A stretch of 64,000 nucleotides of DNA from Rhodotorula mucilaginosa (Eukaryota; Basidiomycota; Microbotryomycetes; Sporidiobolales; Sporidiobolaceae), in assembly GCA_034406715.1 (NCBI GenBank), contig CP137879.1, forward strand, positions 558,001-622,000. Reading direction: 5' to 3'. The translations under genes were made by a program, and so were the position numbers. Of the stretch, positions 21,487-55,570 are shown in pieces. The notes under the pieces were generated by a model, which ran no database searches, was not told where the DNA came from, and saw only the letters and a program-made list of their open reading frames with translations. How positions within the stretch are numbered: position 1 is the first letter of the stretch; every line of letters begins with the position of its first letter.

Positions 21487-21497
21487 CGGACAAGCCG
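21487..21497 (+). promoter_or_regulatory. FM promoter element (CGG-N5-CCG), FM1
   Basis: CGG ACAAG CCG, within TCCGCGGACAAGCCG, 154 bp before the proposed FM1 ATG. It is the same 15-16 bp sequence found upstream of the other family members. Confidence 0.75.
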
Positions 21498-21651
21498 GTA
21501 TGCTGAGAGGCTTTCGCCGTTCCACGGTTGCCTTTGCCTCGCTGCTTGTCACCTGCGCTTTCCCCTCCTGCCTGCCAGCAAGCAAAGTCTTCTACTCGGC
21601 ACGACCAGTGGCGTCACCCTTGTGTCTGCTGCAGCATGGCGTCTTCCCGCT

Positions 21652-22658
21652 ATGAACACTCCGGCGAGGCTTCCGCCGGACCTGGTGGACATCACAGGGA
21701 AGACACGCATCCACTCGGCGGCCTTGAATTTGACTGTACAACTCACGGCGACCCTTCAAAAGTACTTTGTCAATCTCCAAGCTGCCTTGGAGAGACTCGA
21801 GATCCTGTATGATTCGCAGGTCCAGCTCTGGTTACGTCATCTGGTTGCAGCCATCAACATATCGTACAATGGCAGGAAGCCACACGTCAAAAAGAGCCTA
21901 GGCACCACCCTCAAGGATCTCTGTAAAGGATTGTCTAGTTACAAACAGGACAATTCTGAGGCAGCGGTTGAGTTCCTTGTTTGTCTGTTCTCTGCTCTCT
22001 CTCTATGCTCCACAAGTTGCTGACCTTGAAACACTAGCTGGGCACTATATTCCTCAATGTGATTGTGCGTTCTCGTTTCGCAAGCCTTTCAAACGCAACC
22101 CGCGGTCCCGGCTGACGTCCACTTGGCTGTGGTTCATATGCAGGCAGAGTCTATCAAAAAGGTGTGCAACTTCCAAAGAGACACTGGGCGCCTGCATAAT
22201 AAACTGCACTCCTTACCTGGATCCCTACCCTCGGCAGCAAAGATTGACGCTACCACCGATCCCGAATGTGCGGTCCGAGCCGGCAAGCCTTGTCCTTTAT
22301 CCCATGAAAGCAACCGTGTCTATTACTGACAAACTGTGCTCACCACATCGGTCTGAACAGCAACAGGTATGCCTGTCCCCGAATCTTCCTCCAGCCCCCA
22401 CCTAGATCCCTTGTTCTCACCGGGTGGCCTGCTCAGCGACCTCTTCACGTCACTGACCCCTTTTGGTCATTGCATTGCCAGGGAACCGAAGGGCCGCAGC
22501 CAATGGAGCCTATGCGGTGGGTTCCGCCCTCTACAGGTCCGCCGCAATCGTCACCGCACCCTGGTCACCCTGCGCATCACCCGTCTCTCGGAGCTACACA
22601 GCTCTCGCACCGCAAGCGCGCCATCTATGCCCGACAGGGCTGGAACCCCGGAGCGTGA
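21652..22658 (+). CDS. FM1: lineage-specific family protein with RKRAIYAR tail
   Basis: Unrecognised protein; no function can be assigned. The first coding block (21652 to about 21963) begins MNTPARLPPDLVDITGKTR and contains LKDLCKGLSSYKQ, matching the LC..L part of the family module. Later blocks around 22063-22300 (HLAVVHMQAESIKKVC) and 22470-22658 follow introns with GT/AG borders. The last exon ends QLSHRKRAIYARQGWNPGA, homologous to the LSxRQRAIYxR ends of FM2, FM3, FM10, FM12 and FM13. A second ATG 16 bp upstream opens another frame (MASSRYEHSG) that ends after about 60 codons and is less likely. Exon borders in the middle are not resolved. Codon use is mixed, unlike the C/G-ending neighbours. 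It lies between VMA13 and the CIA30 gene. Confidence 0.65.
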
Positions 22659-23042
22659 ACCACACAAAGTCTTTCAGACCTTCCCTTCGTGCATAGCAAG
22701 TTTTTTTGTGCAGCCTGATTCTTCCAGGACTTTTCATTTTTGTCTTTCGTAACTTGGTACAAATCGTTTCCTGTTCTTCCCCATCCGAGGTCTGTATTCA
22801 TTGAGAGATTAGGATCGAGAGATTAGGGAGACCGGGCAGCTCTTTCCTCTTCAAAGTCTCCGTGATCTAGCAGGCGTCCAGCACTGATTGATCCAAGCTC
22901 CCGATCTCTGAAAGCGGCTCTTCGTCCTCGCAACGCATGTCTTGTGGCCGGAGCCCGCCAAGAAATACGTCGCATGGACCACAAAGAGCTTGCAATACTT
23001 CCTACAGAAGTGCAGACGTTTTCGTTCAACAGCTTTTGTTGG

Positions 23043-24119
23043 CTACGGAAGCCGAATCGCTCCTTCTCCGGCGCATTCACCACCACCGCCTCTTTGCTCC
23101 CTGAAGAATCCGGCGACAAGGTTCCACATCCATGCAAAGGGTGCCATCACAATTTCGAGAAAGTGTCGAAACCAGGTCCCGACTCCGCGAGGGTGAGGCG
23201 AGGCGATGGCGAGCGAGACCAGGTCGAACGAAAAGTCGCCGGCTTGCTCGCCAAAGTTGGAGCGGCACATAAAGCTGAGCCTGCAAGGATTGGGGAAAGC
23301 GGGGGGTGAGCAAAGGGAAGGATCGGGTACAAAAGCCCGACCCGCCCAGAGAAGCGGCGAGAACGAGAGCGGTCTGCGATCAGTCGAAAGGACCACCCTG
23401 CGGAGAGAAAACTCACTCGTAAATGTGCTCTGGATCTAAAGGATCCGCGTCCTCTTTTGGCCTCCCGCGATAAGTCGGCTTGAACTGGTCCCACTTCGCC
23501 AAAACCGTCACGCTCGCTCTGCCTCCCTTCTCTTCTTCCTCGTCGCCAACGCGCTTCTCTTCATCATCGCCCGGCGCAGATTCCAAGTCGTCGCGATAGT
23601 TGTCCAAGTCGATCGTGTACTGATAGACCGTCACGCTCTCCCTTCTGCCGTCCGGTCTCCGCGATGGCTTTTCCTCCTTGAGCGCGACGACGAGCTTGTG
23701 CGGCTTGGCGGCAGGCGGCGAGAAGAGACGAGGAGGGGCAAGGAAGGTGATGAGCAGCCCGGTGGTGCGGGAGCGCTTGCCGAGGCGAAGAGGCGGATCG
23801 AAGGTCGCCGACTGGGAAGCGAATCCGGCCCCTCCGAGTGCGGTGATGTCTGCTCGTGCCGAGGGTGGCTTCTTCAGTGCCAGAGCAAGACGAGAATCTG
23901 GACCGGCTACGTACCAAGGTGACCGCTAAAAGTGCCGAAGTTGGTTCTCGAGTCGACCGTCCATGACGAAGTCGACGCGCCGCCTCGGACCGTGTCGTTC
24001 ACAGGCTCGAAAGCAGGCCAGGCCTGTGTGCCGCCGAATAGAGGCTGGAGGATATGGTCTGTCAGCATCACTGTGCGGCCTTTGCTCGACATGCTGAGGG
24101 TATGACGGACCTTGGACAT
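23043..24119 (-). CDS. CIA30-domain protein (complex I assembly factor NDUFAF1-like)
   Basis: Exons 24119-23915, 23849-23417 and 23280-23043 sum to 876 nt, giving 291 residues. The N-terminal part shows the CIA30 (NADH:ubiquinone oxidoreductase intermediate-associated protein 30) pattern: FEPVNDTVRGGASTSSW, then NFGTFSGHLDI and LGGAGFASQ. A further family block follows after a long acidic insert (DDEEKRVGDEEEEKGG): ESVTVYQYTIDL, then LSFMCRSNFGEQAGDFSFDL. CIA30 proteins help assemble mitochondrial complex I, and some fungal homologues have other roles. No clear presequence is seen, and the C-terminus holds hydrophobic segments (FLEIVMAPFAWMWNLVAGFF) that may bind membrane, so location is uncertain. 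The start MSKVRHTLS has the first ATG in frame. Confidence 0.82.
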
Positions 24120-24605
24120 GATGAAACGGGGAAGCGATGAGAGCGTGTCGGTGACGGGACGACGAGATGCACAGGCGCAGTGAGCGGTTCAGTCACGTAT
24201 CTCGGCGCAAGTAGCTGTGCCTATCTCGCCCCGGCGTAGCACGGGCTGATCGTATGTAGGGGAAGGCGAGACCGACGAGGCAAGATCGGCGTGAAATCCT
24301 GAGGAGGTTCGAGGTTAGCTCTCGCTCGCCATTTCCATCGGTCCAGCTTGGCCGTGCGCGGATGCATGTTCCCCTATTCGACGAGAGCTGATCGCGTAGC
24401 CTGCTGCCACCAGCCTTCCGCTGCGCCGCTGCTTTTGCTTTCGCTCGCTCTCACGCAATCGACCCATCGTCGACACCTGCTGCTGGAGCGACAAGCTTGT
24501 CTCGTTCTACGAAAGTCTGCTACTACAGGGAACAGCGATCTACACGCATACACAACCGCCGAGCGCACCGTGGTTGCGCTCCCGCTCAGTCCTCTCGCAA
24601 CACCG

Positions 24606-24616
24606 CGGACAAGCCG
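24606..24616 (+). promoter_or_regulatory. FM promoter element (CGG-N5-CCG), FM2
   Basis: CGG ACAAG CCG, in CCGCGGACAAGCCG, 97 bp before the FM2 ATG at 24714. Confidence 0.75.
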
Positions 24617-24713
24617 AAGGCGAACCCCTCTGCTCGCACCTTCCACCAGATGCACCCTGTGCCTCGCTTCCTGTCCCTTTGAGGCTACGCGTGCTCCGCC
24701 ACGCCGGCACAGC

Positions 24714-26067
24714 ATGTCCCACCCGAGTTCCCAGCCTAGATCAGCAGCACTCGCCGAGGCCACCCAGCGGTCACCGACTCTGTCGAGGCCCCCCGACGAC
24801 GAGGTCCAAACCCTGCTTACTGGGTCCACAGCCAGGAGACCTACCCAGGCCGTTACTGCTGCTCTCAGGTCCATCTCGGCGATCTGCAGTAACCTGAACA
24901 TCTCGCGCGACCGGATTGTGTTCAACTGGTTCAAGACAGTCACGGGCCTCCTCAAGCGGGGCGCTGGTGGCCAGTGGGCGTATGACTCATGGGATAAATC
25001 TCAAAAAGTCACATTTGGCCGCTCGTTGAAGGTCATTGAAAAGAATGTCCTCAAAGCGCAGAGAACGGGATTCCAAGCCGTGTTGGATGTTCTCGTGCGT
25101 CGGGGCAGCTGTCCCGGATGTTTTCAAGAAAGCCTCTGACACGCTGACAGACTTGCAATCGAGACAGGAGAACCAGCATATGCATATGCCCAAACCGGAC
25201 AGCCGTGTCTGGGAGGTGAATGAACACCTTGCCACGCGTTTCTTCCATTCCTCCTTGTCTGGGACGCTGACACCCTGTATTCGAGCTCTCCAGCGGCAGC
25301 AACTTATCTTTCCTACTGTTTGTGTCAAAGACAGCTCTTTGTGTACTGTGCATTACTGTAAACCAGCAATCCAGGCTGACAATGTCGCCGCAGCAGGCTA
25401 GCTCCGGATCTCAACATCGACAGCTTTCCAACATGTCACGTCGTCCCGGACACAGCCATTCCAATCCTCTGCGGGCTGAGCCTGTGAGTAGCTGTGGCCC
25501 AGTTAGCAAATCCTGTTGAACCATTCTGACTGCCCGCTGAGCCACATACAAAAGAAAACCCCCACCGGCCCCATACAACCGGAGAGGCAGCCTTCACCTG
25601 TCGTCCCCGGTACGGCCTCTGATGGACACCTTGTACCATTTGGTACTCATCTGCATCATGATCACAGCTCAGGTCCTCCTGAGCGGCTCCCATCGATTGC
25701 GGAAATGCTAGCGGGAGAACCGGTCGCATTTTGCCACCCTCCTTCTAGCGGCAATGTATCAACACTGCCAGGTATGCAGACAAGTCTTATTTCATCCTGC
25801 TAAGATTTGGAAAGATGTTCAGCTTCTGACTTTTACAATGAGCAGGAGGATCTGCCGTTCCAACCACCTCGACCTCGCTATCTTCTGCCGACAGTGCCGC
25901 AGCAAGCACCTATATACCTTTTGCATCAGGGTGTACCCAGAGAGCTAGATTCAGAGACCCATGACCGACACAAGGAGCACGAGCGGTACAGTCTTGCGCC
26001 TGCGGCCCGGCTTTCTCTGCGGCAGCGGATCGTTTACGGTCGATATGGTTGGAGTCCCTCGTCATAG
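24714..26067 (+). CDS. FM2: lineage-specific family protein with RQRIVYGR tail
   Basis: Unrecognised. The first exon (24714 to about 25094) encodes MSHPSSQPRSAALAEATQ, then QAVTAALRSISAICSNLN, VFNWFKTVTGLLKRG and LKVIEKNVLKAQRTG, and ends at a GTGCGT donor. The middle block around 25130-25400 encodes DLQSRQENQHMHMPKPDS. The last exon (about 25845-26067) encodes Pro/Gln-rich sequence (FQPPRPRYLLPTVPQQAP) and closes ARLSLRQRIVYGRYGWSPSS, the family tail. The helical module is weak here. The gene lies between the CIA30 gene and cyclin L, on the opposite strand to both. Internal exon borders remain uncertain. Confidence 0.6.
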
Positions 26068-27642: not shown

Positions 27643-28414
27643 GGCGGTCTCGTTCTCTTCGCAGCAGCTGCTTGTCCGGCTACAGCAATGTCCCCGTTGG
27701 ACTACAGACGGCGAGACGACGCGTTGAAGCGGAGCGTGATGAAGTCGGCGGCCGCCGCGGAGTTACGCCGCGCCTCAACTTGGGAAGGCCGGCCTTGCGC
27801 TCTTTCGAATTGGCGTTCTCGGTGCTCGCGCGCAGTGTGGAGACTGTTCAGACTTTACTATCAGTGGCTATTGGGCATCCCGGCACTGCCAAGGAAAGCA
27901 CGGGAGGCCCGCCGCATCGAGTCCGGATGCTGCGCCCAACAGACACGTCCGCAGATCTCTTACGAGCGACTGCCGCGTAACTTAGCTATAGCGCCGTAGC
28001 GCCGTGCCTAATTTGTTTCGTGTCTTTCCGACTTTGTACTTCTGTGTAGTAAAGGCTCTGGACCATGGACTTGTCAGTCAAAATTTTTACTCTCCCCTTT
28101 TTCTGGTTGTCATCATGCGGTGGACTCGTACGTTTGCCCCTGTCGGCGCCACGCCACAACGTAAGCTATTTATGCTGGGGGGCGTAACACCGCCTTCCTG
28201 TGGTCCCAAGCATTACATCTCGATCGCGCGATCGGTCTCGGGTTGTCCGCGGGGGCGTGTGTCAGGCCCGACGGACTGGGTGGTCGCCTCTAGGTTGGGC
28301 TCCCTTCCATACATACGCGGGCTAGCGTGTTGCTGCCCATCTCGCTCAATCTAGTGTGACAGCAGGCTCCCCATCGTCAGCGGTCCCAACGATTCAGACA
28401 CAAGCACTGCCGTC
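27643..28414. other. Intergenic region cyclin L to FM3
   Basis: 772 bp without a supported gene. It holds the divergent promoters of cyclin L and FM3, including the FM element at 28239-28249. Confidence 0.5.
28239..28249 (-). promoter_or_regulatory. FM promoter element (CGG-N5-CCG), FM3
   Basis: On the + strand the sequence is CGG GTTGT CCG followed by CGG, that is, the family element in the opposite orientation with one change (ACAAC instead of ACAAG in the spacer). It lies 165 bp before the FM3 ATG at 28415. Confidence 0.65.
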
Positions 28415-29577
28415 ATGACAAAAGGCGGACGTTCACAGCTACTTCAAAGACTACACGCGATACAAAGCCTGCCCTTTCCAAATGCAGTGCTCCCTCTGGT
28501 CCGAAGCTTTTGTGAGACCATCCGCACTGCCGAGATTGCAGCGAAAACAGTGCACCCCTTTCTGTGGCAGGAGCGAAAGCACCACGCAATCTTTGGCACG
28601 CTGCAAACCGTCTACGACAAGCTTCAAGGATTGAACAAGCAGGATCCTTATCTGTACCATAAAGTGCAGACTATTCTTGTGAGGTCATAGGTCGAACAAG
28701 CAGCGAGTGAACGACCTAAGCTGATCATGCCGCATTACAGGACAGCGCACGTGTAGACCTGCTTGATAAGATCCAGCTTGCAAGGGAGGAAGCAAGTAAA
28801 GTACCATATAAGAGAGAGTCTGCGCTATGCTGGAGTAACGGCTTGTCTCAATCTAGCAAAAGGTATTGACCCGATTAAACACACATCGTCAGAACGTTCG
28901 GGAGATGATCCATCTAGACAACCAACAATTCAACGCCTACTCAATAGCGTAGCTGCTGCATATGGCGCGGATCATCAAAAGCCCCTCAAAGTATTCCGCG
29001 CAGTCATTGCGGAGGCGTGGACAAGTGCCGATGAAAAATGGCCACCGTGCGACGGTCCGATTCACGAGCGCATCAAGAACATCTTCAAGGCGCTATGCAA
29101 GGCTCTTGAGTCCTTGCACCACCCTGAGGGGCTTGGGACGCAACAAGGACAGCGAGCGCATACTGAACGCCCTGCGGATGTACTGGTGAAACTGCTTGAG
29201 ATCTCTCTCACATCCTGGATGACGATGAGCTCATCCCTTACTCGGTGTGCAGAATGAGTACACACCTCAACTGCTTGCTGCTTTTGAAGATCTGAAGAAC
29301 CCTGCACGCAAAGCGATCATCAAAAACGAGCGTGAGTCTGCGATGACTCCAACTGCTTCAGATAATCCAAGTTTCCACCTTGACGACGCACTTCTATACC
29401 AATAAGCCTGACCTTTTACTTCCATTAGGGCTACGGCGAGCAAGGAAATCAGAGCGAGCGCGTGCCAAACAAGCACAAGGGACACAGACAGCAGGAGCAG
29501 CGCAGTCTATTGGTCACGCCGCTCGCCTGACTATGTCGCCTCGCCAGCAGCGGATCTACGGCGCCGCCGGTCTTTGA
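28415..29577 (+). CDS. FM3: lineage-specific family protein, one helical module, RQQRIYG tail
   Basis: Unrecognised. Exon 1 (28415 to about 28676) encodes MTKGGRSQLLQRLHAIQSL, KHHAIFGTLQTVYDKLQ and YLYHKVQTIL, then a GTGAGG donor. The following exon begins DSARVDLLDKIQLAREEA. The large exon near 28910-29190 carries the full family module: IQRLLNSVAAAYGADHQK, FRAVIAEAWTSADEKWPP, IKNIFKALCKALESLHHPEG. A block EYTPQLLAAFEDLKNPARKA follows, and the last exon (about 29427-29577) ends LTMSPRQQRIYGAAGL. It stands between cyclin L and GPI2. Confidence 0.68.
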
Positions 29578-31745: not shown

Positions 31746-32410
31746 CTACCAGCATGCGGCATCATCCTCGCCGCCGTCGCTGCCGTCGCTGCGGAACCTG
31801 GCTGCGGGGAAGAACCGGTTGCCGAATCCGCTCGTCGACGGCTAATCGCTCCCCGGCGGGGTGAGAACAGGACACCAGCTCTATCAGCTGCGCTAGATAC
31901 GTGAGGCAAGGCAACCACGGCTGACTCACCTGAACAAGAGCACGCCTCCCCAGAGATTGAGACCTGCCCCCGTGGTTAAGAACCCAATGTTCGCGGGCGC
32001 GCAATTTTAGGATGTCGTCCACCAAGGCTTTTGTGCACCCACGCTGAGGAGCCCAAACAAAAGCTACAAGTGAGTATGGCATCTCTTAGACTGTCTCCAG
32101 ACACAGTCGGGCTCACGAGTGTCTCGGTTGCTGGAGTTGGCTGGTCGGAAACCAACTCCTTGTTCTTGTCTCTGTTCAAAGCATCCTTCAGTGAGGTGAG
32201 CCTCCTCTCGATGTTTTTGCGCAATACTGGGACCGTATCATGCGGAGTTTCCATCTCTGGCAACACCTCGTCCCACGCCTTTTGCAGCGCGCGCTCGAAT
32301 TCCCGGAGGACTGCGCCAGACGACGCGGGTGTATGCACATATGCGCCAATCGCGGCATCGCGCTTGGGAGTGTACTCCTCCGTGAACCAGTGGCTGCGGC
32401 TCTCCTCCAT
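31746..32410 (-). CDS. FM4: short-type family protein, first of a six-gene array
   Basis: Unrecognised. Exon 1 starts at ATG 32410 (MEESRSHWFTEEYTPKRDA) and contains the short form of the module: LREFERALQKAWDEVLPEME, then LRKNIERRLTSLKDAL, ending near SDQPTPATETL. A second exon encodes KALVDDILKLRAREHW and ends RRALVQ at a GTGAGT donor (about 31930). The last exon follows a TTCTTCCCCGCAG acceptor and encodes RFRSDGSDGGEDDAACW before TAG. This three-exon plan recurs in FM5-FM9. It is 55% similar by eye to FM5 over exon 1 (an estimate, not a computed value). No known domain is seen. Confidence 0.62.
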
Positions 32411-32616
32411 CGCTCACGTCGGTCGACTTGCCACGAAGCGGGAGGACAGAATCAAGAGAGCTTTGCGCTCACGGGACGGGCCAGCAAGGCGAGCGAGTGG
32501 CTCAGGGTAAGGTGGGGAGGGGAAGAGAGAAGTGACAAAGAGAAGAGTCTAGAGTGTTCACACCCGTCTCGGTCTCCTCAGCCAGTCGGATCTTGGCGAG
32601 GACGAGCGTCGCTCCG

Positions 32617-32627
32617 CGGACAAGCCG
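32617..32627 (+). promoter_or_regulatory. FM promoter element (CGG-N5-CCG), FM4
   Basis: CGG ACAAG CCG within GCTCCGCGGACAAGCCGG, 206 bp upstream of the minus-strand FM4 ATG. Confidence 0.75.
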
Positions 32628-32887: not shown

Positions 32888-33533
32888 CTATTGCGCCGCT
32901 TGACCGCCGCCACCGCTATCGCTGCTGGACCTGGCTACCGGGAAGAACCTGCGTCCGTTGTTCACCTGCTGACACGCGCCAGTGCGACCCGGGACGTCTA
33001 GTTGCTCAGCCATGCAAAAAGGCAGAAAAACAGAGCAACTGCAGATTGACTCACCTCGACATTGTGGCGCCTTCCGAGCGATCGAGACCCTGTAGAAGGG
33101 GTAAGGTGACGTTCTCGGAGCCGGAGCTGTATAATCCTATGCTCTAAACGCTTTTGCCAAGTTTGCTGAGGGGCGCAGGCTCAGGGTTAGAGGTGAGCTG
33201 CAGAGGTGTTGTAACTAGAACCCCCGGGGCGCTTACAAGTATTACGGTGCAGGGCTGCCGCTCGTCGGGAACCGGCGCTTTGTCTTTGTCTGCTATCAAA
33301 GCCTCCTTGAGCTCGTTGAGCCCCTTGATAATTGACGTGCGCAGCTCTTTGACACTCTCGCATGGAATCTCCATATCTGGAAAATCCTTGATGCGCCAGG
33401 CGGCCTCCAGCGTCGCCTTGAACCTTTCAAGTCTTTTGTCAGACGATCCGGGTGAATCTTTGTATGCCTCCGTTGCCGCTTTGAGGGTTGGAGCGTATAC
33501 CCAATAGCACCAATCCAGATGACTGCGGGGCAT
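32888..33533 (-). CDS. FM5: short-type family protein
   Basis: Unrecognised. ATG 33533 gives MPRSHLDWCYWVYAPTLKAA; the module follows as LERFKATLEAAWRIKDFPDM, CESVKELRTSIIKGLNELK and EALIADKDKAPVPDE, aligning with FM4 (LREFERALQKAW...SLKDALNRDKNK). A middle exon ends near EGATMSR at a GTGAGTC donor (about 33050). The final exon follows the acceptor TTCTTCCCGGTAG and encodes RSSSDSGGGGQAAQ then TAG, the same Ser/Gly tail type as FM4. The frame is open upstream of 33533, but spacing to the promoter element supports this ATG. Confidence 0.62.
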
Positions 33534-33748
33534 TGGCCGAGTGAGGTGTCCACTGCTGTCCCAGACACTGACAAGAGGAGGAAGGAGCTGCGTCCGGTTG
33601 TCAAAGCTGCGAGTCAAGGTGAAAGTAAGGAGAGAGAAAGAGAGAGCCAAGCTGTGGCTGTCTTCTGCTTGTGTATGGACACTGGCGAGCTCCTTTCGTC
33701 CTTTCCAGAAGAGCATCACGCGTCACGAGCACGGATTGCGCTCGTCCG

Positions 33749-33759
33749 TGGACAAGCCG
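33749..33759 (+). promoter_or_regulatory. FM promoter element, variant (TGG-N5-CCG), FM5
   Basis: TGG ACAAG CCG within CTCGTCCGTGGACAAGCCGG, one base off the core, 215 bp upstream of the FM5 ATG. Confidence 0.6.
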
Positions 33760-34430: not shown

Positions 34431-34570
34431 ACGAGTCCGGCGGAGCTCCGCGGCGCGGGACCGAGCTCGTCCGTAACGGCCACGCGTGCGTGCGTTCGCC
34501 AAGCGCTCGCAACCTTGACATCTCCGCACTTTGGCAAGCTGGGGACGGGGGTGGGTCTTTAAAGACTCCG

Positions 34571-34581
34571 CGGACAAGCCG
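34571..34581 (+). promoter_or_regulatory. FM promoter element (CGG-N5-CCG), FM6
   Basis: CGG ACAAG CCG within ACTCCGCGGACAAGCCG, upstream of the FM6 remnant. Confidence 0.7.
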
Positions 34582-34886: not shown

Positions 34887-35491
34887 TCAAGACCTAGCTG
34901 CCGGAAAGAACCGACCCTTCTTGTGTCCAGGACAATTATGGAACGGCTAGAACCAAGTGTACAGGACAGACATTTTGCATGAGGAGGTGTGTCGGATGCA
35001 GAGTGCTCACAAGGAATGCAAACAACTCACCTTGTTCAAGCTGTTTGTGTGTGACAAATGTCCACGGTTGCGAACAAGAGTGGCGGCGTGAAGCTTTTCG
35101 ATCTTCCAGATCAAGTCTTTCCTTGCGGTGTCCTGTCAAAGTGACAGTTCACATACAAATTCCGCGCACAAAAGATGGCTGAACTGACCAGTTTCGTCTC
35201 CAAACACTGCTTGATATTCTCACTTCCCTGGTGATGGACCTTTTCCAACTCCCTTTTGAGGTTGTCAAGCTCCGACAGTATGTCCTCCGCGAGCTGTTGA
35301 GGATCCTTGCGTGGGACAGGTTGGTCCGGAACATGTTGTCGTTCCCAAGCAGCCATCAGCTCGTCGAGGAAGTCAGCAGAGACATCCTCGTCCCAGCCTT
35401 GCGCGCGGCCACATACCGCAAGCACCGCTTCAATGCCATTAACCAAAGGTACCCTATACCTTGACTGCACATCTTCAGCACTTGATTGCAT
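34887..35491 (-). CDS. FM7: short-type family protein
   Basis: Unrecognised. ATG 35491 gives MQSSAEDVQSRYRVPLVNG; exon 1 carries the module as FLDELMAAWERQHVPDQPV, QLAEDILSELDNLKRELEK and ends ENIKQCLETKLV at the usual donor position. The second exon encodes DLIWKIEKLHAATLV and ends at GTGAGTTG (about 35030). The final exon follows TTCTTTCCGGCAG and is very short (RS then stop). The distance from the promoter element, 206 bp, equals that of FM4. Confidence 0.6.
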
Positions 35492-35697
35492 TGGACGAGA
35501 CTTGCGCCAAGCTGCTCACGATGGCGAACGACACCGGAAAGGAATTTCGCCGTGTTGTGTGACTGTCTCAGGGAGAGCGCGGCACAGATGGTGGTCACAG
35601 CAGGGAAACAGAGAGGCTTTCCTTTCCCAGGCGCAAGGTACTACATACAATGATCCCCACTTCCTCGGATTCCCGCGGTACCCAGACTGTCGCTCCG

Positions 35698-35708
35698 CGG
35701 ACAAGACG
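35698..35708 (+). promoter_or_regulatory. FM promoter element, variant (CGG-N5-ACG), FM7
   Basis: CGG ACAAG ACG within GCTCCGCGGACAAGACG, one base off the core, 206 bp upstream of the FM7 ATG. Confidence 0.6.
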
Positions 35709-35787: not shown

Positions 35788-36468
35788 TCACGTTCCACTG
35801 GGGCTTTTGAATTTCACAGATGCTATGGCAAGGTGGAGAACTCCTCGACTCATTACGGGTGCGTCGGCTAACAGTTGCTGCGAGCTCGAGCTGCTGGGAA
35901 GTACCGATGTTTGAGGGTTGAAGACAGCTGCGCGAGGCGAGACAAACCTACCATCAGCTGTGTAGAGTAACTGACCGCTCATGAAAGGTATCTCACGTGT
36001 TTGGCCTCCCCAGATCTCCCTAGATTGAATGGTTCCAGGTGCTCCGCAGCGTGTTTCGCCACCCGATACCGCTCAATCTTGTGGACCAAGCCCGGTTTTT
36101 TGGCTTCCTGCATAGTGACCAAAAATGAGACCCTTTATCAGCCCAGGTAGGCTGAAGGGGATCAGGGCACAGACAACCATCAAAGCACACACCAGGCACT
36201 GTGCCACCGACTCAGAGGCGTTATTGTTCGCATGTGCCTTTGTCTCCAGTTCGTCCTTAAGTTCGACAAGCGCATCGATCACTTCCCCGTGCAGCTTGGT
36301 AGCAGTTTCAGTAGGAACGAGCATCTCCGGCAGGCTGTGAGTTGTCCACGCTTGGACCAAGTCCCGGCGGAAGTTGGCGGCGACGTCCACATCCGGATGT
36401 TCTGTGTCCGCGTAGACCGTCAACACGGCGCGCAGGTGGGCATAGAACGGATCGTTTCGATGAGACAT
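35788..36468 (-). CDS. FM8: short-type family protein
   Basis: Unrecognised. ATG 36468 gives MSHRNDPFYAHLRAVLTVYA; the module reads FRRDLVQAWTTHSLPEMLVP, then VIDALVELKDELETKA, and exon 1 ends near ESVAQCL. Exon 2, after the acceptor CTATGCAG, encodes EAKKPGLVHKIERYRVAKH and ends EAKH at GTGAGATA (about 36000). Exon 3 follows TACTTCCCAG with SSSSQQLLADAP and ends FKSPSGT. The first intron side carries a hydrophobic stretch (LMVVCALIPFSLPG) if read through, but I take it as intron. Confidence 0.62.
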
Positions 36469-36686
36469 GGGTAAACAAAAGAAGGGTCGACAGCTGAGGA
36501 GCGACTGGTGGACTCTTTTGGGGGAGAAAGAGATTGTGGTGGAAGAAGTCTCGGGGTCAAATTCCAAAGGACATAGGCGCTTTCCTCTCGTGGCGCCCTC
36601 CGCGGGGGGAGGGGCCACTCCACGCACCCCCCGCACTCTCGAGCCCTGATATCGATCCGCACGCCGCGTGCGCGCAAAGTACTCCG

Positions 36687-36697
36687 CGGACAAGCCG
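36687..36697 (+). promoter_or_regulatory. FM promoter element (CGG-N5-CCG), FM8
   Basis: CGG ACAAG CCG within ACTCCGCGGACAAGCCG, 218 bp upstream of the FM8 ATG. Confidence 0.75.
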
Positions 36698-36910: not shown

Positions 36911-37996
36911 TCAAGCAGCCAAACGCCCCGGCAGCGGGAGATGAGATACAGAAGTGTAGGGATAGGTTGCGGCGCGCGAACGACTTACCGAAGCCAGATT
37001 GTGCTCCGAATGGCCTGCGCCGTTTGACGTTCCGAGGTTCTGGGCGCGGTATTCGCGAATCAGCCTCTCCAGCTCTGGAAGGTTTTCAAACTGCAGGGAT
37101 CCATACGAGAAAGAAGCCTCGCGTGAGTAAGAGAGAGAGAGCAAGAGGAAGAGGTGCCACCAAAGCGGAATAGATCTGTAGGATTGGGGCGCCCGGACGT
37201 ACCAGAGCCTTGTTGAGACGCTCCTGGGGTTCCAAGTTCCGGTCGGCCTTGGACGGATTGGTAGCCGCCGTCTGGAGCGCGCTGTGGACGACGTCCAATT
37301 CTTCGAGTATCGCTTTCCACGTTTCACCTTGACGTTTCACGTTCAAGTCGACGCTTGGACCCGGAACCTCGTCAGAAGTCAGAGCCGTGTCGAGTCGCTC
37401 GAGGAAGCGCTTCTCGAGCACCTGACACCCTGCTCTGAAGTAGATCTTGTACTGGTCGTCGAGGTAGAACTTGTAGAGGTCTAGAATGTCTTTGACCCTG
37501 TTGATGAAGGGGTTGTGGTCGTATCGATCGTACACCGAGCCGCCGGTCGAGATGGTAATGTGGTCGAGCTTTCCGCGCAGGGCAACAATGGCATGCGTTA
37601 GGACTGGCTTCCAGAGTCTCTGAAAGGAGAGAGGGGGAGAGGTGTCATTAGCCAGGTTGACAGCCGGATGTCCCAGGAACAGGTGCTCACCAAGATCTCT
37701 TTAGGAGCGTAAGGAGACGACGGGGGCGGTCCAGATGGGCACAAAGCGGCGTACATGGCGTCGAGCTCGCGCAGGATTGGAAGCCACGCCTCGTGATTAC
37801 GTGCCACAGTATCAGGTTCGACAGGCTGTCCGTTGTAGTCCTCGGCGAAAAGCGCGTGTCGCACTTGTCCTTTGAAGAGCTTCTTCTCGCCGGGATCCCC
37901 GCCCACATGGTCGTAAGCAGCGAGGCAGGCGTCAAATCTTTCGGAAAAGGGATCGAGGGGTCGCTTTTCGTGGTGGACCGGCATGTTCGATTGCAT
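36911..37996 (-). CDS. FM9: short-type family protein with an added helical exon
   Basis: Unrecognised. ATG 37996 opens MQSNMPVHHEKRPLDPFSER, then FKGQVRHALFAEDYNGQPV and WLPILRELDAMYAALCPSG, ending PYAPKEIL at GTGAGCACC. A long second exon follows the acceptor TTTCAG (about 37620): RLWKPVLTHAIVALRGKLD, FINRVKDILDLYKFYLDD, FLERLDTALTSDEVPGPSV and TWKAILEELDVVHSALQ, a second copy of the same helix pattern, up to RLNKALV. A third exon (about 37095-36985) encodes FENLPELERLIREYRAQNL and ends EHNLAS at GTAAGTCG. The 3' limit is uncertain. FM9 thus carries two module copies, against one in FM4-FM8. Confidence 0.62.
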
Positions 37997-38211
37997 TTGC
38001 AGGGGAGGGGACGAGGTCCAGCTGCCGCCGAACAGCAAGAGTGGGACAATTTCGTCGACTCGTAGTGGGTGGAAATCTGGCTGCGAGCCACCAGCGAATG
38101 CCGCCTTTTGTGGAGAGAAGAAAGTGAAGACAAAGAGCAAGGGACTCGCGCGGCGAGGCGCCCAGATGTAGGGAGATCCGAGAGGGGTTCGAGCGCAACC
38201 CTCCGTCTCCG

Positions 38212-38222
38212 CGGACAAGCCG
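38212..38222 (+). promoter_or_regulatory. FM promoter element (CGG-N5-CCG), FM9
   Basis: CGG ACAAG CCG within GTCTCCGCGGACAAGCCG, 215 bp upstream of the FM9 ATG. Confidence 0.75.
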
Positions 38223-43258: not shown

Positions 43259-44978
43259 TTACTGCAGGCGAGAAATTGGGTTCCAAGGTTGGCTGCGAGT
43301 GTAGATTGCACGTTGGCGCGGCGAGAGCAGGCCCATGCCTGGAGAGATGCCCAGGGAGTCCGCAGGCAAGGTCCGGTCGGGGCTGTTCGGCCTTCTGGAT
43401 GGTCCCTCACCAGGCTCTAGATGGCCAGGTAGAGTCAGCATTGTCATGTTGACTAGAGACCCCACAACAGTGCAAGTGGGGCAGCGTTCAAGGTAAGGGG
43501 TCTGAACACAGATTCACCTGGAATCTTCCGTTTCCTCTCCTTCTTCCAAGTCTTGTTGCGGACATCATCAAAAACCTCCCTCAAGTTGGTCTCTGCCGCC
43601 TCCTGTGTACGAGTGGTTCAGAGGAGTGCTCAGCGTTGCATGCGGCAGGAGGGAGGAGTTGGCGCAACCCACCAACTTAGTATCCATGTTGCTCTTCAGC
43701 TCTGTGTCGGGCCAGGAGTGCTCTTGAGCACTTCTATGCAAGCTTTCAAGGCTCTTACACAGCTCTTGAAAGGCCTTGTCGAGAGCTTGGCGACTGTGGC
43801 CCCTACCCGGCCATCGTTGTCCAACAGCCTCCCACGCTTCCGTAATCCGGGTACGGAAGGCAGTTCTAGGTAGACCATATGCTGCATCAACCTCATCAAG
43901 CCAGTACTGAAGTGAGTTTTTCATTTTGTGGGTATTTGTGTTCAGGTGCTTGCGCCCAGCTGTGTGCAAAGACCGAAAGTTTGAGTTCTTCCTCAAAAGG
44001 GTATTGGTTCTTCGTGTGTGTATTAGTCAAGTCACTGACCTTGCCTGCCATGGTCTGCAATATGAGTGTTCCACTGCTGGAGCACTTCCATGAACTGAGC
44101 CATTGCTTCCTCCTGTGGACAATGATACCTGAGCGCTGCACTGTGTTCCTGACGGAAGATTGGCCGAACAAACCAATTGTGTATCTAGTTCCTTGTGCAG
44201 ATTGGCTGCATGCCACTGCTCTGCTTGAGCTGTCTGTTGTGTATTCTTGAGGTTGGTGCAAAGATTACGGAAGACACCGTCCAAAGCCTTGCGTTCCGGT
44301 GTGTCCTTCCTTGGCCAGTTCCTTTTGGTATCCTGCCAAGCTTTGACGACCTTGTCACGGAATGAAGTAGGAGACTGGCCGTAAGCGCTCTCAACTTTGC
44401 AAAGCCATTGCCCAAGCGTGCTCTTTTTTGTTTGAGTAGCGCGTCCCTGAGGTTCATACTCGCCTGTGTGCACCAAGTCAGAATCCTGGGCAGAAGAAGA
44501 TGAGATGCCTGCCTCTTACTGGGACTGGGACTGGTATGGGCAGCTGCCTGTGCTGGCAAGCCCCTGGCAGGCTTGCCCATCAGCTTTCCAAGGTATTCAA
44601 GCTGATCAGCCTGCAAGGGAACAACCAGAGTGAGCGAGGCAAGATAAGGCAAAATTCCACAGTACGGACAAGATATTTTTCCACCCGGGTGTGTGTGATC
44701 TGGTTGCTGTTCAGGGTTTCAAGGATTGCGTGCACAGACTGAATACACTTGAGGGCGGCTTGTGAGTGCTCCACGCACACTGCGTTGGGCTGCTCTTCAA
44801 CGGGATCAAAGCAGCCGACTTCTGCAGCGAACTTGCGACCCGCGTTGACAAATGAGGTGATGAGCTCGCGCACTTTCTCATCCTGACCAGAGTATACCTG
44901 CGAGATGCGGCCAAGTTCTTCCTCGAAGGCAGACATCCTCGGGCGGGCACTGCCACTCTGCGGATGGTGGCTAGCCAT
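43259..44978 (-). CDS. FM10: long-type family protein, two modules and RQRAIYTR tail
   Basis: Unrecognised; the most complete long-type member. Exon 1 from ATG 44978: MASHHPQSGSARPRMSAFEE, ELGRISQVYSGQDEKV, ending THTRVEKYL at a GTCCGT donor. Exon 2: ADQLEYLGKLMGKPARGLPA. Exon 3, first module: LGQWLCKVESAYGQSPTSFR, VVKAWQDTKRNWPRKDTPE, LDGVFRNLCTNLKNTQQTAQ, ending LHKELDTQL. Exon 4: EEAMAQFMEVLQQWNTHIA. Exon 5, second module: LQYWLDEVDAAYGLPRTAFR, ITEAWEAVGQRWPGRGHS, LDKAFQELCKSLESLHRSAQ, ending SNMDTKL. Exon 6: EAAETNLREVFDDVRNKTWK and KKERKRKIP. The last exon (about 43428-43259) is Pro/Arg-rich and ends GLLSPRQRAIYTRSQPWNPI. Both modules end at the same exon border, which argues for exon duplication. 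Predicted all-helical; no signal or membrane segment. Confidence 0.72.
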
Positions 44979-45111
44979 GCTTGCAGCTGGACTGGTTCAG
45001 CGAATTGCACTTGGGGAGCTGGCCAGATAGGCAGAAGATGCGAAAGAGCATGGAAGGACACACGTTGAGAGGGACCCGGTCGACCCGGGGGAGCCTGCAC
45101 AGTTTCCTCCG

Positions 45112-45122
45112 CGGACAAGCCG
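45112..45122 (+). promoter_or_regulatory. FM promoter element (CGG-N5-CCG), FM10
   Basis: CGG ACAAG CCG within CCTCCGCGGACAAGCCG, 133 bp upstream of the FM10 ATG. Confidence 0.75.
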
Positions 45123-45613: not shown

Positions 45614-46884
45614 TCAGATGTCAGGGTGCTCGGTGCGGCAACAAGGAAAGAACCGGTTCCCACCAGAAGGAACATCATGAGAGTGTACAAAGATGCGGCC
45701 TGTGACAGGATCAATGCTGTAATCGTCTGCCGGGTTGTAGTGCTTGAATTCTTCTCCCGCACGAGGTGGTAAGTTGACCGTATGCCAATGCCGACTTCCC
45801 GTGTCAGCTGTTCCATCTGCAGTAAGACTCCAAGCACCTGTGGGTGGAGCAGTCAAGGGTCAACACATCAAGCATTTTCCGAGCACGCGAGCTTTTGAGA
45901 GACAGAGACAAAAAGAAAAGTCAAGCGCACATTCACCAGGATAAACTGGCTCAGCCGTGGCCAACCTAAGCCGCCAGATGATCTGTGTCAACCTTGCCTG
46001 TGCTTGCTCCTGTCAATAGATGCACAATGTTGGGTGAGCACTTGTTCTAGTGAAAGTGAAGTATCGGCATAACGGACCAATTGAGCATCTAGGCTAAGTT
46101 GAAGTGCTTTTGAACTCCAGTGGTGTACTTGAGCATACTCACGTGTGGCAATCAGGCCATCACACAGGTGAACAAAAACCTGCATGATTGCCCTATGCCG
46201 CTGCTTTGACCACCTCTTTCCGTAAGCATCCCATTGCTGCAGGATATCATGGCGGAACGCAATCTTGCGTGCTCCATAGGCGTTGTCAACACGGTCAAGG
46301 AGGCCAGCAATCACACTCTGCCCATCTGACCTGAGGCGATTGTCACGGCCTGTGGCAAGCCAGTCAATTAACAAGCTGGACTTGCACATAGTTGGAGCTC
46401 AACCACTCGCCTCTTTCCTCTTTTCCGGCACGGGCCTCACGGTGGGCCCTAGATTTATACCCAGCCAGCCATATCTTGTGTATAAGTAATGTTGTTTTAC
46501 CTCTCTGCGTGCAAGCAGTCCACACAATAAGTAGGGGAAGGAGAAGGAGGCTCGCAATCAGCGCACCAAGTAGTCTTGAAGGGGTGGAATGGTCCATACT
46601 CTGCGGGTCTGCAAATCTCTACCAACTGCCCTGAGCTCAGTGAACACGGCTGCATGCTCAGCCAGCCTATTGGGATACCACCGGAATCCGGCAGGCTGCA
46701 CATCAGAAGCTTGATAGAAACCGGCGTCATGAGCCGCTTGACGCAGAGTGCCCAGAAATTGAGCAATGGTCGCCGCAGGGTCGTCTGGATACGCTTGAGA
46801 TATCCTGCCAAGTTCCTCCTCGAAAGCGGAAGTGCGCGGCCGGTTTGGGCGGATGTCATGAGCGCGTCCATGGTGTAGAGCCAT
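45614..46884 (-). CDS. FM11: long-type family protein, one module, no RQRAIY tail
   Basis: Unrecognised. Exon 1 from ATG 46884: MALHHGRAHDIRPNRPRTSA, then FEEELGRISQAYPDD, the same opening as FM10 (SAFEEELGRISQ.Y), ending PPLQDYL. A later exon (about 46350-46075) holds the module: VIAGLLDRVDNAYGARKIAF, RHDILQQWDAYGKRWSKQ, IMQVFVHLCDGLIATREYAQ, ending LQLSLDAQL. The last block (about 45840-45614) encodes GAWSLTADGTADTGSRHWH and DDYSIDPVTGRIFVHSHD and ends RTEHPDI, related to the DPxTGxxVH repeats in FM13. The usual tail is absent, so the gene may be 3'-truncated relative to its kin or have another last exon. Confidence 0.62.
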
Positions 46885-47022
46885 ACTTCCGTAGCCAATC
46901 GCGATGAACTGGGCGGAGCAGTTGCGCGAGCACAGAGCAAAGCAAAGGAGTATGTTTAAAGTGTGCGCGTGGGATCAGGTCGAGCCGTAAGTCGTGGGAG
47001 AGCGGCGGGCATGCGCACGCCG

Positions 47023-47033
47023 CGGAGAAGCCG
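47023..47033 (+). promoter_or_regulatory. FM promoter element, spacer variant (CGG-AGAAG-CCG), FM11
   Basis: Within CGCCGCGGAGAAGCCGAG, with one spacer change from ACAAG. It lies 138 bp upstream of the FM11 ATG. Confidence 0.65.
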
Positions 47034-49970: not shown

Positions 49971-50859
49971 GAATAGTATAGCGATTTTATGTAGAGACTC
50001 ACAGAGAGAGTGTTCTGGTATGGCTTTTGTTTCCCACCTCACAAGCCAACGCAACATTTGATTGACTAGGGCAAGACATTTCTCCGGGAAAGTGTCTCCA
50101 GTCTACAAGTACGCCAGGAAGAGAATCAAGACTAGGGAAAGAAGGGTGAACATGGAAGTAGGGAGGGAACACTTAGGGAAAGAAGACTGAAAACGGAACA
50201 GCCATGTGCTTCCTGATCACCAGAGCGAAGAGTGGCTGTTCCCAGCTCCGGCGCGAGCATAGATTGCGCGCTGGCGCGCTGAGAGGAGGCGCATGCCACG
50301 AGAAAGTCCGAGGGAGGGTGCAGACGAAGTCCCGGGCTGGTGGTGGGCGGTATCATTGCGGTCCGGGTGCTGTCCAGCTTTGGGCAGTGAATTTGGATCT
50401 AGTGTCAATGTGCAAGACATGTCCCACACGGGAGAGGAGAGGGCAAGCTTGTGGAAAAGGAGTCTTGACGCACCCTTCCGCTTGGCCCTTTTCTGCCTCA
50501 TGTCTTGGAACATAGTTTCCACTTGTTTCTGTGCTGCAACCTGTGCTAGCCGCCGGCTAAGTGCTTCACCTTGGTGATAGTCCAGGGACAATGTTACGTA
50601 CCAATTCAGCATCCAGGTGCTCTTGTGGCTCTTTTCCAGACCAGCGGACTTGCCGCATGTCAAGAAGCCTGGCACAGAGTTTTTGTGAGATGTTCTCAAT
50701 CTGTTTGCGCTCTTTGCTGCCCTCCCTTGGCCAATACATCTTGCTAGTTGCCCAAGCGTTCAAGGTGCTGGCACAGAATATCGCCAGCGCAGCTGTGGGT
50801 TCACCGTAAGCTTTCCCCACGGCTGTGAGCATAGAGAATGTTGCCGTTCAGAACGGGGC

Positions 50860-50945
50860 CTGAACGGGGTACGGGAATTTGTACGGCGGTACGTACGGGG
50901 CGCACGGGCCCCGTACGCCGTGCCGCACCCGTCGCGACGATTAAA
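50860..50945. repeat. Left subterminal GTACGGG repeats of the hAT element
   Basis: Dense copies of GTACGGGG/CCCCGTAC and GCACGGG words in both orientations, matched by a similar cluster at 52238-52375 next to the right end. Subterminal short repeats are typical transposase-binding regions of hAT elements. Confidence 0.65.
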
Positions 50946-51299
50946 GTCCCGTCTGACGGGAAAGTACGGGCTTCAAGAAACTTGTAGCAGCTGTAGAGGA
51001 TTCTATATTGCATACACAGTGTCTCTGAACGTTCTGCAGCCTCACAGAGTAGGTCTCAATAAAGGCTCGCAAGGTCCGCGGAGTCCCGAGCGGCCTGAGC
51101 GGCAAGAGTCGGCCAGAGCGAAGTCCGCCTCGTCTCTTTTGCTCTCTCTGCTCACTGGCAACGCTTGTCCTCATGCTCCCGGCGCCAGCGGGAGGAGCAC
51201 CGCTACCATGAAATCTCCAGCTGCTCTCGGCAAGGCTTGAACGTGCCTGGACAGACCAGATTTGGGTGGGAAACGTTCGACGCTTCGAGTGAGTCGTCT

Positions 51300-52375: not shown

Positions 52376-53673
52376 CATTCTCTATGTGAGCATGCCCAGA
52401 ATGGGATAGTCGAGTAAATCATTTCCGGAGGGATTATATCTGCAAATAACTGTAAAAAGCAACTGTCCGAGCCGAGTACTTGCAGAATATACAACCTGAG
52501 CTCGTCGCTACTCCATCATCGGGCACTCACATTTGCGGAGCACGGGTCTCATTTCTGCCAGCATCTTGGCCAGAGTTGTGAGCTCTGTCTCCGCATTGGA
52601 CTACAGAGGAGGAAATGTGAGCTCTGCACAGTACTGAAAGAGCTGGTAACCACAAGCCTCACCAGCTCATCAGTCAGCTGTCCTTGTAGCTTTTCCTCAG
52701 ACCAGCTGTGTGCTCTAGCAGACTGCTGTGTAGCACGCAGGCTGGAACAGAGCTTGTGAAAGATTTCATCCATCACTTTCCGCAGTCCAGTGCCCGCTGT
52801 TGGCCAGCGAAGCCCTGCATCTCTGACCGCTGCCGCCCAAGCTTCCTGGGTTGTGTTGCGGAATGCAGTTGCGCGTTGACCGTAAGCCTTGTCAACCTCA
52901 TCAAGCAGCTGCATGAGCAAGCTTTGATGCGTGAGTCGCGTTCCGCTGACAGATGGCTGTAAGGCTATATGTAGAGACTGTAAGCTTGTCCGAGAGAAGA
53001 AAAGCCAGTTCCTTTTGCTTGAGTCAACTGTCAAAGGCACTCACACTGTGTCGCATCAGGTGTCGCATGGGCGTGTGAGGTCCTGGCAGGCATGAGTTTC
53101 TGAAGGTGTTCTAGCACACTTGACTGCGTGATATGATGCCTGAGATCAGACTGATGGCACAAAAGTGAAGGGAAGAAGTGGTAGGGCAAGAGTGTATGGT
53201 GCTCACTAGATACTGTTCAAGCCAGTCCGACGTGTTGATTCTGCGGTCCAGGACCGCGAGAACCTTGTGCACCGAGTCAAGGCGCCTGAGTGCAGCTTGC
53301 AAGTGCCCCTCCGACACATGTTCGTTATGCTGCCATTGGCCTGATCCGCCAGACTCATCTGCCGCCTCGCACAAGCCGGCTTCGTGACCAATTTCCCAGG
53401 CCGAATGGAGGAAAGAGTTGACACGCTGGTTGACCTCGTTATCGTGGCCAATGTACGCCCTTCAAATCTCATCAAGCATACGCTCGAAAGGAGAAACAGT
53501 CGGGTGGGTGTGCTCTCTGGGGCGGCTGCTGCTGGCCATGGCTTGTAGGAGATTGCACTGCTCCAGAAGGCTGCAACAGCTGCTCAGAAGGAGGTGAACA
53601 GTAGCAGTCAAAGAGGCAGCGAGCGGCGTGCGTGCCTAGGGCAGAACTCGTTGGGGAGCGTGCGCACACTCCG

Positions 53674-53684
53674 CGGACATGCCG
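53674..53684 (+). promoter_or_regulatory. FM promoter element, spacer variant (CGG-ACATG-CCG), FM12
   Basis: Within ACTCCGCGGACATGCCGAG, 134 bp upstream of the FM12 ATG. Confidence 0.65.
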
Positions 53685-54012
53685 AGTCGCCCGAACGTGC
53701 GCGCGCAGTGAAAAAGCTTTTTGAAAGCTCTGATGCTTGACGGCATCGCTACGCACACGAAAAGTCTCCTTGACACCGAGTAGTGCAGAGAAGCGAGCTC
53801 AACGCAGAAGAAATCTGATCCGGTCATCACCGCTTCGCTCCTTTGCAGAGGGCTGCAGCTTATCTCCAGACTTGGAGCTACATTGGTAGGTTATCTAGAT
53901 TACGGCCAAGAATGATACGGGTATAGAATTGCAAAGTATCTTTGCGGTGCAAAGGCAAAGATTTGTTGCGCGCAGTACAAAGTCAAATTCTGCTTTTCCG
54001 CCACAGTGGCAG

Positions 54013-55461
54013 CTACATCCAGTTCACCATGCCTCCACTTGCTCGAGCATAGATGGCTTGCTGACGCCGCGAGAGGATGAGGCTGGCATGGCGACCAATG
54101 GAATACTGCGGCTTGGTGTATGGTTGGTGGACATACCTGCCTGTCCAGGGATCCAACACCCCTGAAAGGAAGAGGGTGTAGTCTTTTAGCATGCCTTTTT
54201 TGCCTTTGAGATAGAGTGTATTGGGAAGTTCAAGCTGGAACCCACCTTCACCCGGAATTCTGAGAGTCGCCGACGCCGAGTCAATCTTGGGCCCCTTGCT
54301 GATGTTGTACGGTAGTGGCGTAGAGTCGTACGGGTAGTGGACTGATTCGCCTGTGAGTGGATCCCACGCGCCTGACAATTTCAAACACACACTGCGCCAT
54401 CAGCATGTTTTCGCCTTCTGGGACAGATCATAAAAAGAATGCCGCGCGTGTTTTTGGAAGTTGAGACAGAGAGTCTCTCACCTTCGCCGGGAACTACTGG
54501 CGGGGCAGATGCCAAGTCAATCTTGTGAATGATGGCTGCCAACTCGCGGTGCGCATGGGCCTGCATGCACCGGAGGTTTGCTCGTGATCTGCTAGGGGTG
54601 ACCAAAAACAGGGACAAGACATGAAGCTTACCAATTGTCCGCGCAGGCACTCAACCAACTTGTCTTCAGTCCAACCCTGGGCTTTGGCCATGCCATGGCA
54701 ATGTGTGAGGTTGCCACAAAGTGTGTTCAAGCATATCAAGAGCTGATCGTGCAGTCGCGTATTTTCGCGCGGCCAGCACTTGTCAATCCGTTCCCATTCA
54801 TCCAGCACGGCACGTTGGAACTCGCACAGAGGACCATGCGGGATGTGAGCTGTGCCGTACGCTTCTGCAACGCGCTTGAGCGCTCCTTCGAGGATCGGAC
54901 CGCCGAGTTGTAAGCCTCCGAAATTGGAAGCACGGACTGGGTCGGGGGGTTTGGTGCTGCAAGTCAGCTTGTACCTCTCGACCGTCAGTGCTTGTTGGCG
55001 GGACTTGCCAATCTGGCGCTTGGCATTGGCAGCTGTAGCAGCCTTGAAAATCTCCGCAACGAGGAGGTCCTGTTGAGTGTGCTAGATACAGTTTTGGTTT
55101 ACTTGATTAGGTCAGCCTTGCAGGTTTCGGAGCATGGTCATCAAAGAAGAGCGAAAAAGGATCGTACAAGGTATTGGGTCAAGTCCAGGCGATCCCGCCA
55201 CCGGCGCGCCATGAGGTGCTCCTTGACCAAGTCCAAATGGTGAAATAAGACGCGGTGCGCTTCGATGAGGGCCGGTCGCCATGCAAAGTTGGTGTACCAT
55301 TCTTTCACCTCTTGGGCCGCCATTGCGAGGGCTTCAATCAAGGGATTCAGCAGGTCGGCGTCTATGCCCGGCAGAGTCGAGATATCTTTGATCTTTCTTG
55401 CGAGAGCAGACCTTCCCAAGGACTCTCCGGGCGCTCGGCAACGAGGCGGAGTGCCAGTCAT
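54013..55461 (-). CDS. FM13: family protein with module, DPxTGxxVH repeats and RQQAIYAR tail
   Basis: Unrecognised. ATG 55461 opens MTGTPPRCRAPGESLGRSAL, then LLNPLIEALAMAAQEVKEW and LVKEHLMARRWRDRLDLTQ, ending QYLV at a donor, as in FM10 (VEKYL) and FM12 (LEQYL). The second long exon (about 55080-54630) encodes DLLVAEIFKAATAANAKR and the module GALKRVAEAYGTAHIPHG, FQRAVLDEWERIDKCWPREN, LLICLNTLCGNLTHCHGMAK, ending LVECLRGQL. The 3' exons hold two related units, GAWDPLTGESVHYPYD and GVLDPWTGRYVHQPYT, joined by IPGEGGFQLELPNTLYLKG, and end ILSRRQQAIYARASGGMVNW. The spacing to the promoter element, 98 bp, matches FM2. Confidence 0.68.
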
Positions 55462-55559
55462 GGGCAGTTAGATGAGCTCTGTGTCGAGGGTCGACAGAGC
55501 AGGAGCGTCGGAAGAAGGCAACTCTGCGTAGGCCGAGAGCAGCTAACAATCCTTCCCCG

Positions 55560-55570
55560 CGGACAAGCCG
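55560..55570 (+). promoter_or_regulatory. FM promoter element (CGG-N5-CCG), FM13
   Basis: CGG ACAAG CCG within TCCCCGCGGACAAGCCGAG, 98 bp upstream of the FM13 ATG. Confidence 0.75.

Follow-up and report, generated by a model that had tools for sequence, protein, structure and literature searches.

A short, nearly invariant promoter element precedes most genes of an orphan family in a 64,000-nucleotide stretch of Rhodotorula mucilaginosa DNA (contig CP137879.1; C16:558001-622000 in our numbering, hereafter the window), and it recurs far beyond that family across the assembly of 20.35 Mb in 19 contigs. Its central 14-mer, CCGCGGACAAGCCG, has 131 exact copies in the genome compared to 1 for the reversed word, and the bases around it carry almost no information. 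Because of these two results we take the motif to be a selected element and not a repeat. We consider it probable that a single transcription factor binds the motif and in this way controls taxon-restricted genes dispersed over the genome.

All 13 sites that had been named by eye in the original prediction, a reading of the window's letters, were recovered at the coordinates given there, 8 as exact 14-mers and 5 with one mismatch. Window positions are counted from its first letter.

21484..21497, plus strand: motif, exact 14-mer; proposed gene on the plus strand, ATG 21652
24603..24616, plus strand: motif, exact; gene plus, ATG 24714
28239..28252, minus strand: motif, 1 mismatch (CCGCGGACAACCCG); gene plus, ATG 28415
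32614..32627, plus strand: motif, exact; gene minus, ATG 32410
33746..33759, plus strand: motif, 1 mismatch (TCCGTGGA form); gene minus, ATG 33533
34568..34581, plus strand: motif, exact; clear gene start not found (FM6 of the original prediction)
35695..35708, plus strand: motif, 1 mismatch; gene minus, ATG 35491
36684..36697, plus strand: motif, exact; gene minus, ATG 36468
38209..38222, plus strand: motif, exact; gene minus, ATG 37996
45109..45122, plus strand: motif, exact; gene minus, ATG 44978
47020..47033, plus strand: motif, 1 mismatch; gene minus, ATG 46884
53671..53684, plus strand: motif, 1 mismatch (CATG spacer variant); gene minus, ATG 53539
55557..55570, plus strand: motif, exact; gene minus, ATG 55461

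The motif edge lies 95-215 bp from the proposed family ATG at 12 of the 13 sites, close to the 97-218 bp given earlier, and both orientations relative to the gene occur, as had been proposed. The start of FM6 had been called unclear, and we likewise found no clear gene at 34568. The 16-mer with leading CT, originally put forward as the element, is complete at only 7 of the 13 sites. A refined consensus, TCCGCGGACAWSCCGR, allowed ≤2 mismatches, returned exactly these 13 sites in the window and none in the reversed window. With ≤1 mismatch, the core CGGACAAGCCG was found 17 times compared to 1.9 expected from dinucleotide shuffling, the additional core sites being at 27668, 48055, 53368 and 61843. 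A copy with 2 mismatches at 42523 falls within an open reading frame (ORF).

Across the genome every form of the motif greatly exceeded its control: 259 compared to 32 for the 11-base core, 193 compared to 2 for TCCGCGGACAAGCCGR at ≤1 mismatch, 263 compared to 11 reversed for the relaxed-spacer form TCCGCGGANNNNCCG, 121 compared to 2 for a form with its end left free (TCCGCGGACAAG), and 35 compared to 0 for the CAT(G/C) spacer variant. Individual places were listed for 100 of the 131 exact 14-mers, 100 of the 193 (including all 92 exact 16-mers), 100 of the 263 and 100 of the 121. The sites are strongly clustered: among 96 sites on C1-C11 (the lengths of C5, C6, C9 and C11 being estimated), 45 had a neighbour within 10 kb, compared to 11.3 expected and a maximum of 24 in 500 simulations, and adjacent sites ≤12 kb apart lay on the same strand in 28 of 30 pairs. 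At C4:517375-530025, six core sites recur with three steps of exactly 4692 bp, probably as a tandem array, and because of this exact periodicity some copies must have arisen by duplication. In the family region of the window, the 8 exact copies in 34 kb make a density about 36 times the average over the genome, which is one per 155 kb. The main error of the original prediction was one of scope. It had confined the element to the window family, and had named equal abundance away from family genes as telling against it; the genome scan found the motif far more widespread than the family, with 131 exact and 263 relaxed copies compared to the 16 places that carry the family's C-terminal box (see below), a count that excludes boxless members. 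The box family thus covers few of the 131 copies.

Conservation ends at the motif. In 60 unique retrieved exact sites, where the 14 motif bases are fixed by the selection of exact copies and the flanks are free, the flanks averaged 0.022 bits per base, so that no conservation extending beyond the motif, as a mobile repeat would have, was found in this set. The base before the 14-mer was T in 51 of the 60, preceded by C in 31, and a purine followed in 49. A repeat search (seed 14) of 20-57 kb in the window reported a sole repeat of ≥40 nt, which was anchored on the motif itself. The layout CCG-CGG-N5-CCG places three CGG triplets in a fixed arrangement, and the distal CCG was present in 92 of the 100 listed places where that end had been left free. 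Among the 100 listed TCCGCGGANNNNCCG words the spacer was CAAG in 46, CATC in 9, CATG in 6 and CACC in 5; CA was strongly preferred, and triplet changes occurred too. Triplets that are stricter than the spacer would fit zinc-cluster logic, though the spacer is not free. The best form of the site is TCCGCGGACA(A/T)(G/C)CCG(R), in which a further CCG follows an octamer that equals the pleiotropic drug response element (PDRE) of yeast. In locus L065, two CAT(G/C) sites precede two orphan first exons of similar appearance, at distances of 173 and 158 bp, and at six other retrieved sites of this type (L060 to L064) the gene is less clear. Paired or overlapping octamers, which are two-sided, imperfect versions of the site, were seen at L056:1270-1293, L039 (C3:1461457-1461488) and C4:67051-67072.

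We examined the layout of 32 promoters chosen for readable genes from about 68 sites. A pyrimidine-rich stretch lies 30-80 bp from the motif on the gene side, with a C+T content of 0.71 where motif and gene have the same orientation (18 promoters) and 0.61 where they are opposite (14 promoters), compared to 0.52 and 0.51 on the side away from the gene (sign-flip test for the C+T block, 1 in 20000). CT-rich stretches are a feature of fungal core promoters. Judged from base composition, this arrangement suggests an upstream factor site that stands beside a fungal core promoter and is indifferent to orientation.

To find family members by a pattern that holds nothing of the motif, we used the C-terminal box LSxRQRxIYxR, which ends several family genes (8 occurrences in the window and the retrieved sequence together, compared to none after reversal). 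It is the one test independent of the motif, as the seeds of the window-family hidden Markov model were genes adjoining sites, although loci with sites also served to define the box. The box DNA pattern occurred at 16 places in the genome compared to 0 in the control, 5 of them in the window, 4 more on C16, 6 on C3 and 1 on C12. In eight of the 11 box genes outside the window, a site at ≤2 mismatches lies upstream of the box at a distance of 0.9-1.3 kb. Three of these genes are at C16:468-471 kb, the others at C16:638328 and C3:1392437, 1457674, 1471579 and 1473555. The motif is therefore present at most independently found family members.

Beyond the family, the first 30 sites along C1-C3 (loci L009-L038 in contig order, with overlaps between L024/L025, L026/L027, L028-L030, L035/L036 and L037/L038) had an ORF of ≥75 amino acids starting with ATG at 60-250 bp in 23 of 30 cases, compared to 401 of 900 shifted positions. 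Pfam searches, run overall with 30 selected fragments of ORFs and with two alignments, gave a match at E ≤ 0.01 for 3 of 20 fragments from these 30 loci: Peptidase_M16 (L011), a thiamine pyrophosphate (TPP)-enzyme domain (L032) and a sub-threshold Snf7 (L019). The original prediction had seen no copy by conserved genes; this stands for the window as far as examined, whereas elsewhere in the genome some ordinary genes have sites. Fifteen regions were retrieved because sites cluster there; in those on C4, C7, C8 and C10 we found various kinds of orphan genes in tandem, with open first frames of very roughly 60-190 amino acids, and ten orphan-cluster fragments (one from the window) matched no Pfam family above its curated cut-off. 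A further orphan family at L021, L022 and L064 (C2 and C16; membership of L064 read by eye) has a common stretch like (H/N)IDx(F/Y)LQxLTLGI and one motif copy per locus. The site-bearing orphan genes are poorly annotated, since the L052 gene retrieved just two database relatives: C6P46_003086, a 'hypothetical protein' of R. mucilaginosa that matches at 94% over 24% of the query, and an unnamed one (54% over 47%). A mean hydropathy of 2 over 10 residues serves as a threshold for secretion signals, and all 16 first-exon N-termini examined stayed below it (highest 1.85); secretion is therefore not indicated.

The window family itself comprises 13 counted genes, 12 of them with a good site; the gene at 21484 is included on weak evidence (hhalign 66%). 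The genes and exons delimited are as follows.

54013..55461, minus strand: family gene, modelled with five exons and GT-AG introns, 361 amino acids (exons 55168-55461, 54632-55069, 54482-54560, 54246-54371, 54013-54161)
24714..26067, plus strand: family gene span; C-terminal box 26014; exon 1 related to the C3 family
28415..29577, plus strand: family gene span; helical domain 28916-29140, C-terminal box 29536
43259..44978, minus strand: family gene span; two helical domains (44168-44428, 43667-43921), C-terminal box 43324
46072..46884, minus strand: family gene, exon 1; helical domain 46072-46320
52657..53539, minus strand: family gene, exon 1; helical domain 52657-52926
50217..50844, minus strand: family gene fragment; domain 50596-50844, C-terminal box 50282
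32129..32410, minus strand: family exon 1, subfamily A; ATG 32410
33243..33533, minus strand: family exon 1, subfamily A; ATG 33533
35195..35491, minus strand: family exon 1, subfamily A; ATG 35491
36187..36468, minus strand: family exon 1, subfamily A; ATG 36468
37736..37996, minus strand: family exon 1, subfamily A; ATG 37996

The family genes contain a helical domain, singly or in several copies, for which four helices were predicted with high confidence (predicted local distance difference test, pLDDT, 90.5). The 12 aligned window domains show 14-40% identity to the first. Exon 1 of the gene at 24714 matched the C3 family at hhalign 91.7%, compared to 1.8% for the best reversed control. 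A structure search with the helical domain found no informative match; Pfam searches with the 12 window domains and 5 C3-type exons gave nothing better than E 0.015, and the best hits of a PDB sequence search were at E 0.21 and 1.1. A word-based search with the one full gene (361 amino acids) found no protein at E ≤ 10 in a database that includes Rhodotorula proteins, the window karyopherin alpha being 99% identical there to that of Rhodotorula dairenensis. The gene at ATG 53539 has an in-frame stop in its first exon and keeps its promoter site at 53671; it is possibly a pseudogene with a retained site. Adjoining the fragment at 50.2-50.9 kb, the stretch 50689-51237 is about 82-86% identical in translation to L043:3-744 (C4:25.3 kb), and is perhaps a mobile element that displaced the 5′ part of the fragment. 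At the left end of the window, 1-about 4430, a 1467-bp unit is repeated head to tail in about three copies and runs off the end, the first 2958 bases equalling the next copy exactly.

We propose that one sequence-specific transcription factor would bind the site in either orientation, in the proximal promoter, with some 65-215 bp between it and the start codon of the readable genes, and directly upstream of the pyrimidine-rich block. The factor would drive, or silence until needed, a dispersed gene set in this Rhodotorula made up of the window family, its relatives on other contigs, several more tandem orphan clusters and some ordinary genes, and these would be expressed together. Tandem duplication would have copied gene and promoter, with selection retaining the site while its surroundings diverged. 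That the factor belongs to the Zn2Cys6 class is plausible, a further step which we hold to be about evenly balanced; the genome offers candidates, with at least 20 Zn2Cys6 domain matches, none of which lies ≤5 kb from an exact site among the 100 listed of 131.

Several observations weigh against control of all these genes by one factor. The claim that the motif precedes every family gene held for 12 of the 13 in the window; the fragment at 50.2-50.9 kb has a copy with 3 mismatches at 51067 (minus strand). Outside the window, the box gene at C12:38407 has the 11-base core only, and no site at ≤3 mismatches was found for C3:1462026 and C3:1470750 in the 3.1 and 0.8 kb scanned upstream, the latter scan running up to the next box. 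No relatedness of the other clusters to the window family could be demonstrated, the best reversed control reaching 41%, and the Peptidase_M16 exon near the site of L011 is an ordinary gene. The promoter layout was obtained from genes selected for readability, and conservation of a single site fits an activator, a repressor or an architectural factor alike.

This last type of protein, a general regulatory factor such as Reb1, Abf1 or Rap1 that opens promoters or insulates genes instead of governing a pathway, and that the family would use because its promoters lack other elements, would account for a long and nearly invariant site used in either orientation, directly upstream of the pyrimidine block and also present before ordinary genes (the L011 exon and a few others judged by eye). 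We think it unlikely. The genome holds 131-263 sites per 20.35 Mb, strongly clustered, and tandem orphan genes occupy the clusters that were read; a housekeeping factor is improbable because the sites are too few and too uneven. An element acting on the RNA from the 5′ leader could be transcribed, since the motif lies 65-215 bp from the ATG, yet the two orientations are about equal in the picked promoters and the pyrimidine block falls between motif and ATG, and we give this post-transcriptional explanation very little weight.

Two explanations dispense with function. The motif could be a repeat spread by mobility or gene conversion, such as the end of a transposon or a target for insertion, and fall in promoters by chance, as its many identical copies in both orientations and the duplicated copies of the 4692-bp array on C4 might suggest. 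The result for the flanks, neither of which is conserved, largely refutes this, the window cluster shares no other DNA of ≥40 nt, and the copies keep a promoter position, with graded variants at gene starts such as the two CATG sites of L065; such an origin is highly improbable. Alternatively, promoters may resemble each other through recent tandem copying, the motif being inherited without function. Orientation is indeed constant within most clusters, but the flanks are unshared, 14-16 bases stay fixed while the window domains have diverged to the identities given above, and the site is common to clusters with no detectable protein similarity, so that pure inheritance also seems remote. Binding by one transcription factor is the reading that we retain.

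The octamers TCCGCGGA and TCCGTGGA are sites of the Saccharomyces cerevisiae zinc-cluster factors Pdr1 and Pdr3 (PMC11111045, PMC8211738), given in PMC11111045 as the classical PDRE1 and PDRE2. The Rhodotorula octamer is identical, including the C-to-T variant at 33746, and has the same everted CGG triplets, whereas the site as a whole extends with CA(A/T)(G/C)CCG. No exact 14-mer or 16-mer was found near any of 13 PF06422 matches to PDR-type ATP-binding cassette (ABC) transporters, among the matches listed; a relaxed match, TCCGCGGAAGCTCCG, lies between exons of such transporters at C1:39874 and C1:86678. These exons form mirror-image arrays with equal scores at C1:28771-44000 and C1:83150-97795, which could stem from a large inverted duplication or from an error of assembly. 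The nitrate regulators NIT4 and NirA recognize CTCCGHGG / TCCGCGGA; they have the octamer in common with the Rhodotorula site, which differs by its extra CCG.

The wtf genes of Schizosaccharomyces pombe carry Mei4 FLEX sites. They are a fast-diverging, multi-copy, multi-exon orphan family (PMC9762604, PMC9562144). The Rhodotorula genes resemble them in these traits and in sharing a regulator site, and differ in that the site marks other families too and that there is no evidence of drive. Plant-pathogenic basidiomycetes have tandem effector clusters of fast-evolving, taxon-restricted genes that are possibly co-regulated; the tandem arrangement and rapid evolution are alike, whereas the 16 first-exon N-termini examined here do not indicate secretion.

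Orphan families are usually hard to place, as neither sequence nor neighbours tell their function. A single near-invariant site before such genes makes function testable, by a search for its binding protein and for the condition under which it becomes active, and the site doubles as a gene finder, having pointed to clusters of orphan genes in tandem on several contigs. The element is more interesting than first thought because it serves a much larger gene set than the window family. More tentatively, and with less confidence than in the binding site itself, one regulator and a 16-base site could govern a genome-wide orphan regulon in this mainly saprophytic yeast. It would comprise about a hundred taxon-restricted, fast-diverging genes, apparently intracellular, which lie in tandem clusters on many contigs and form either several families or a single ancient superfamily of helical modules that has diverged beyond sequence recognition. 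If true, this regulon would resemble a system for conflict or recognition, be it self/non-self, drive or defence, that is switched on as a block.

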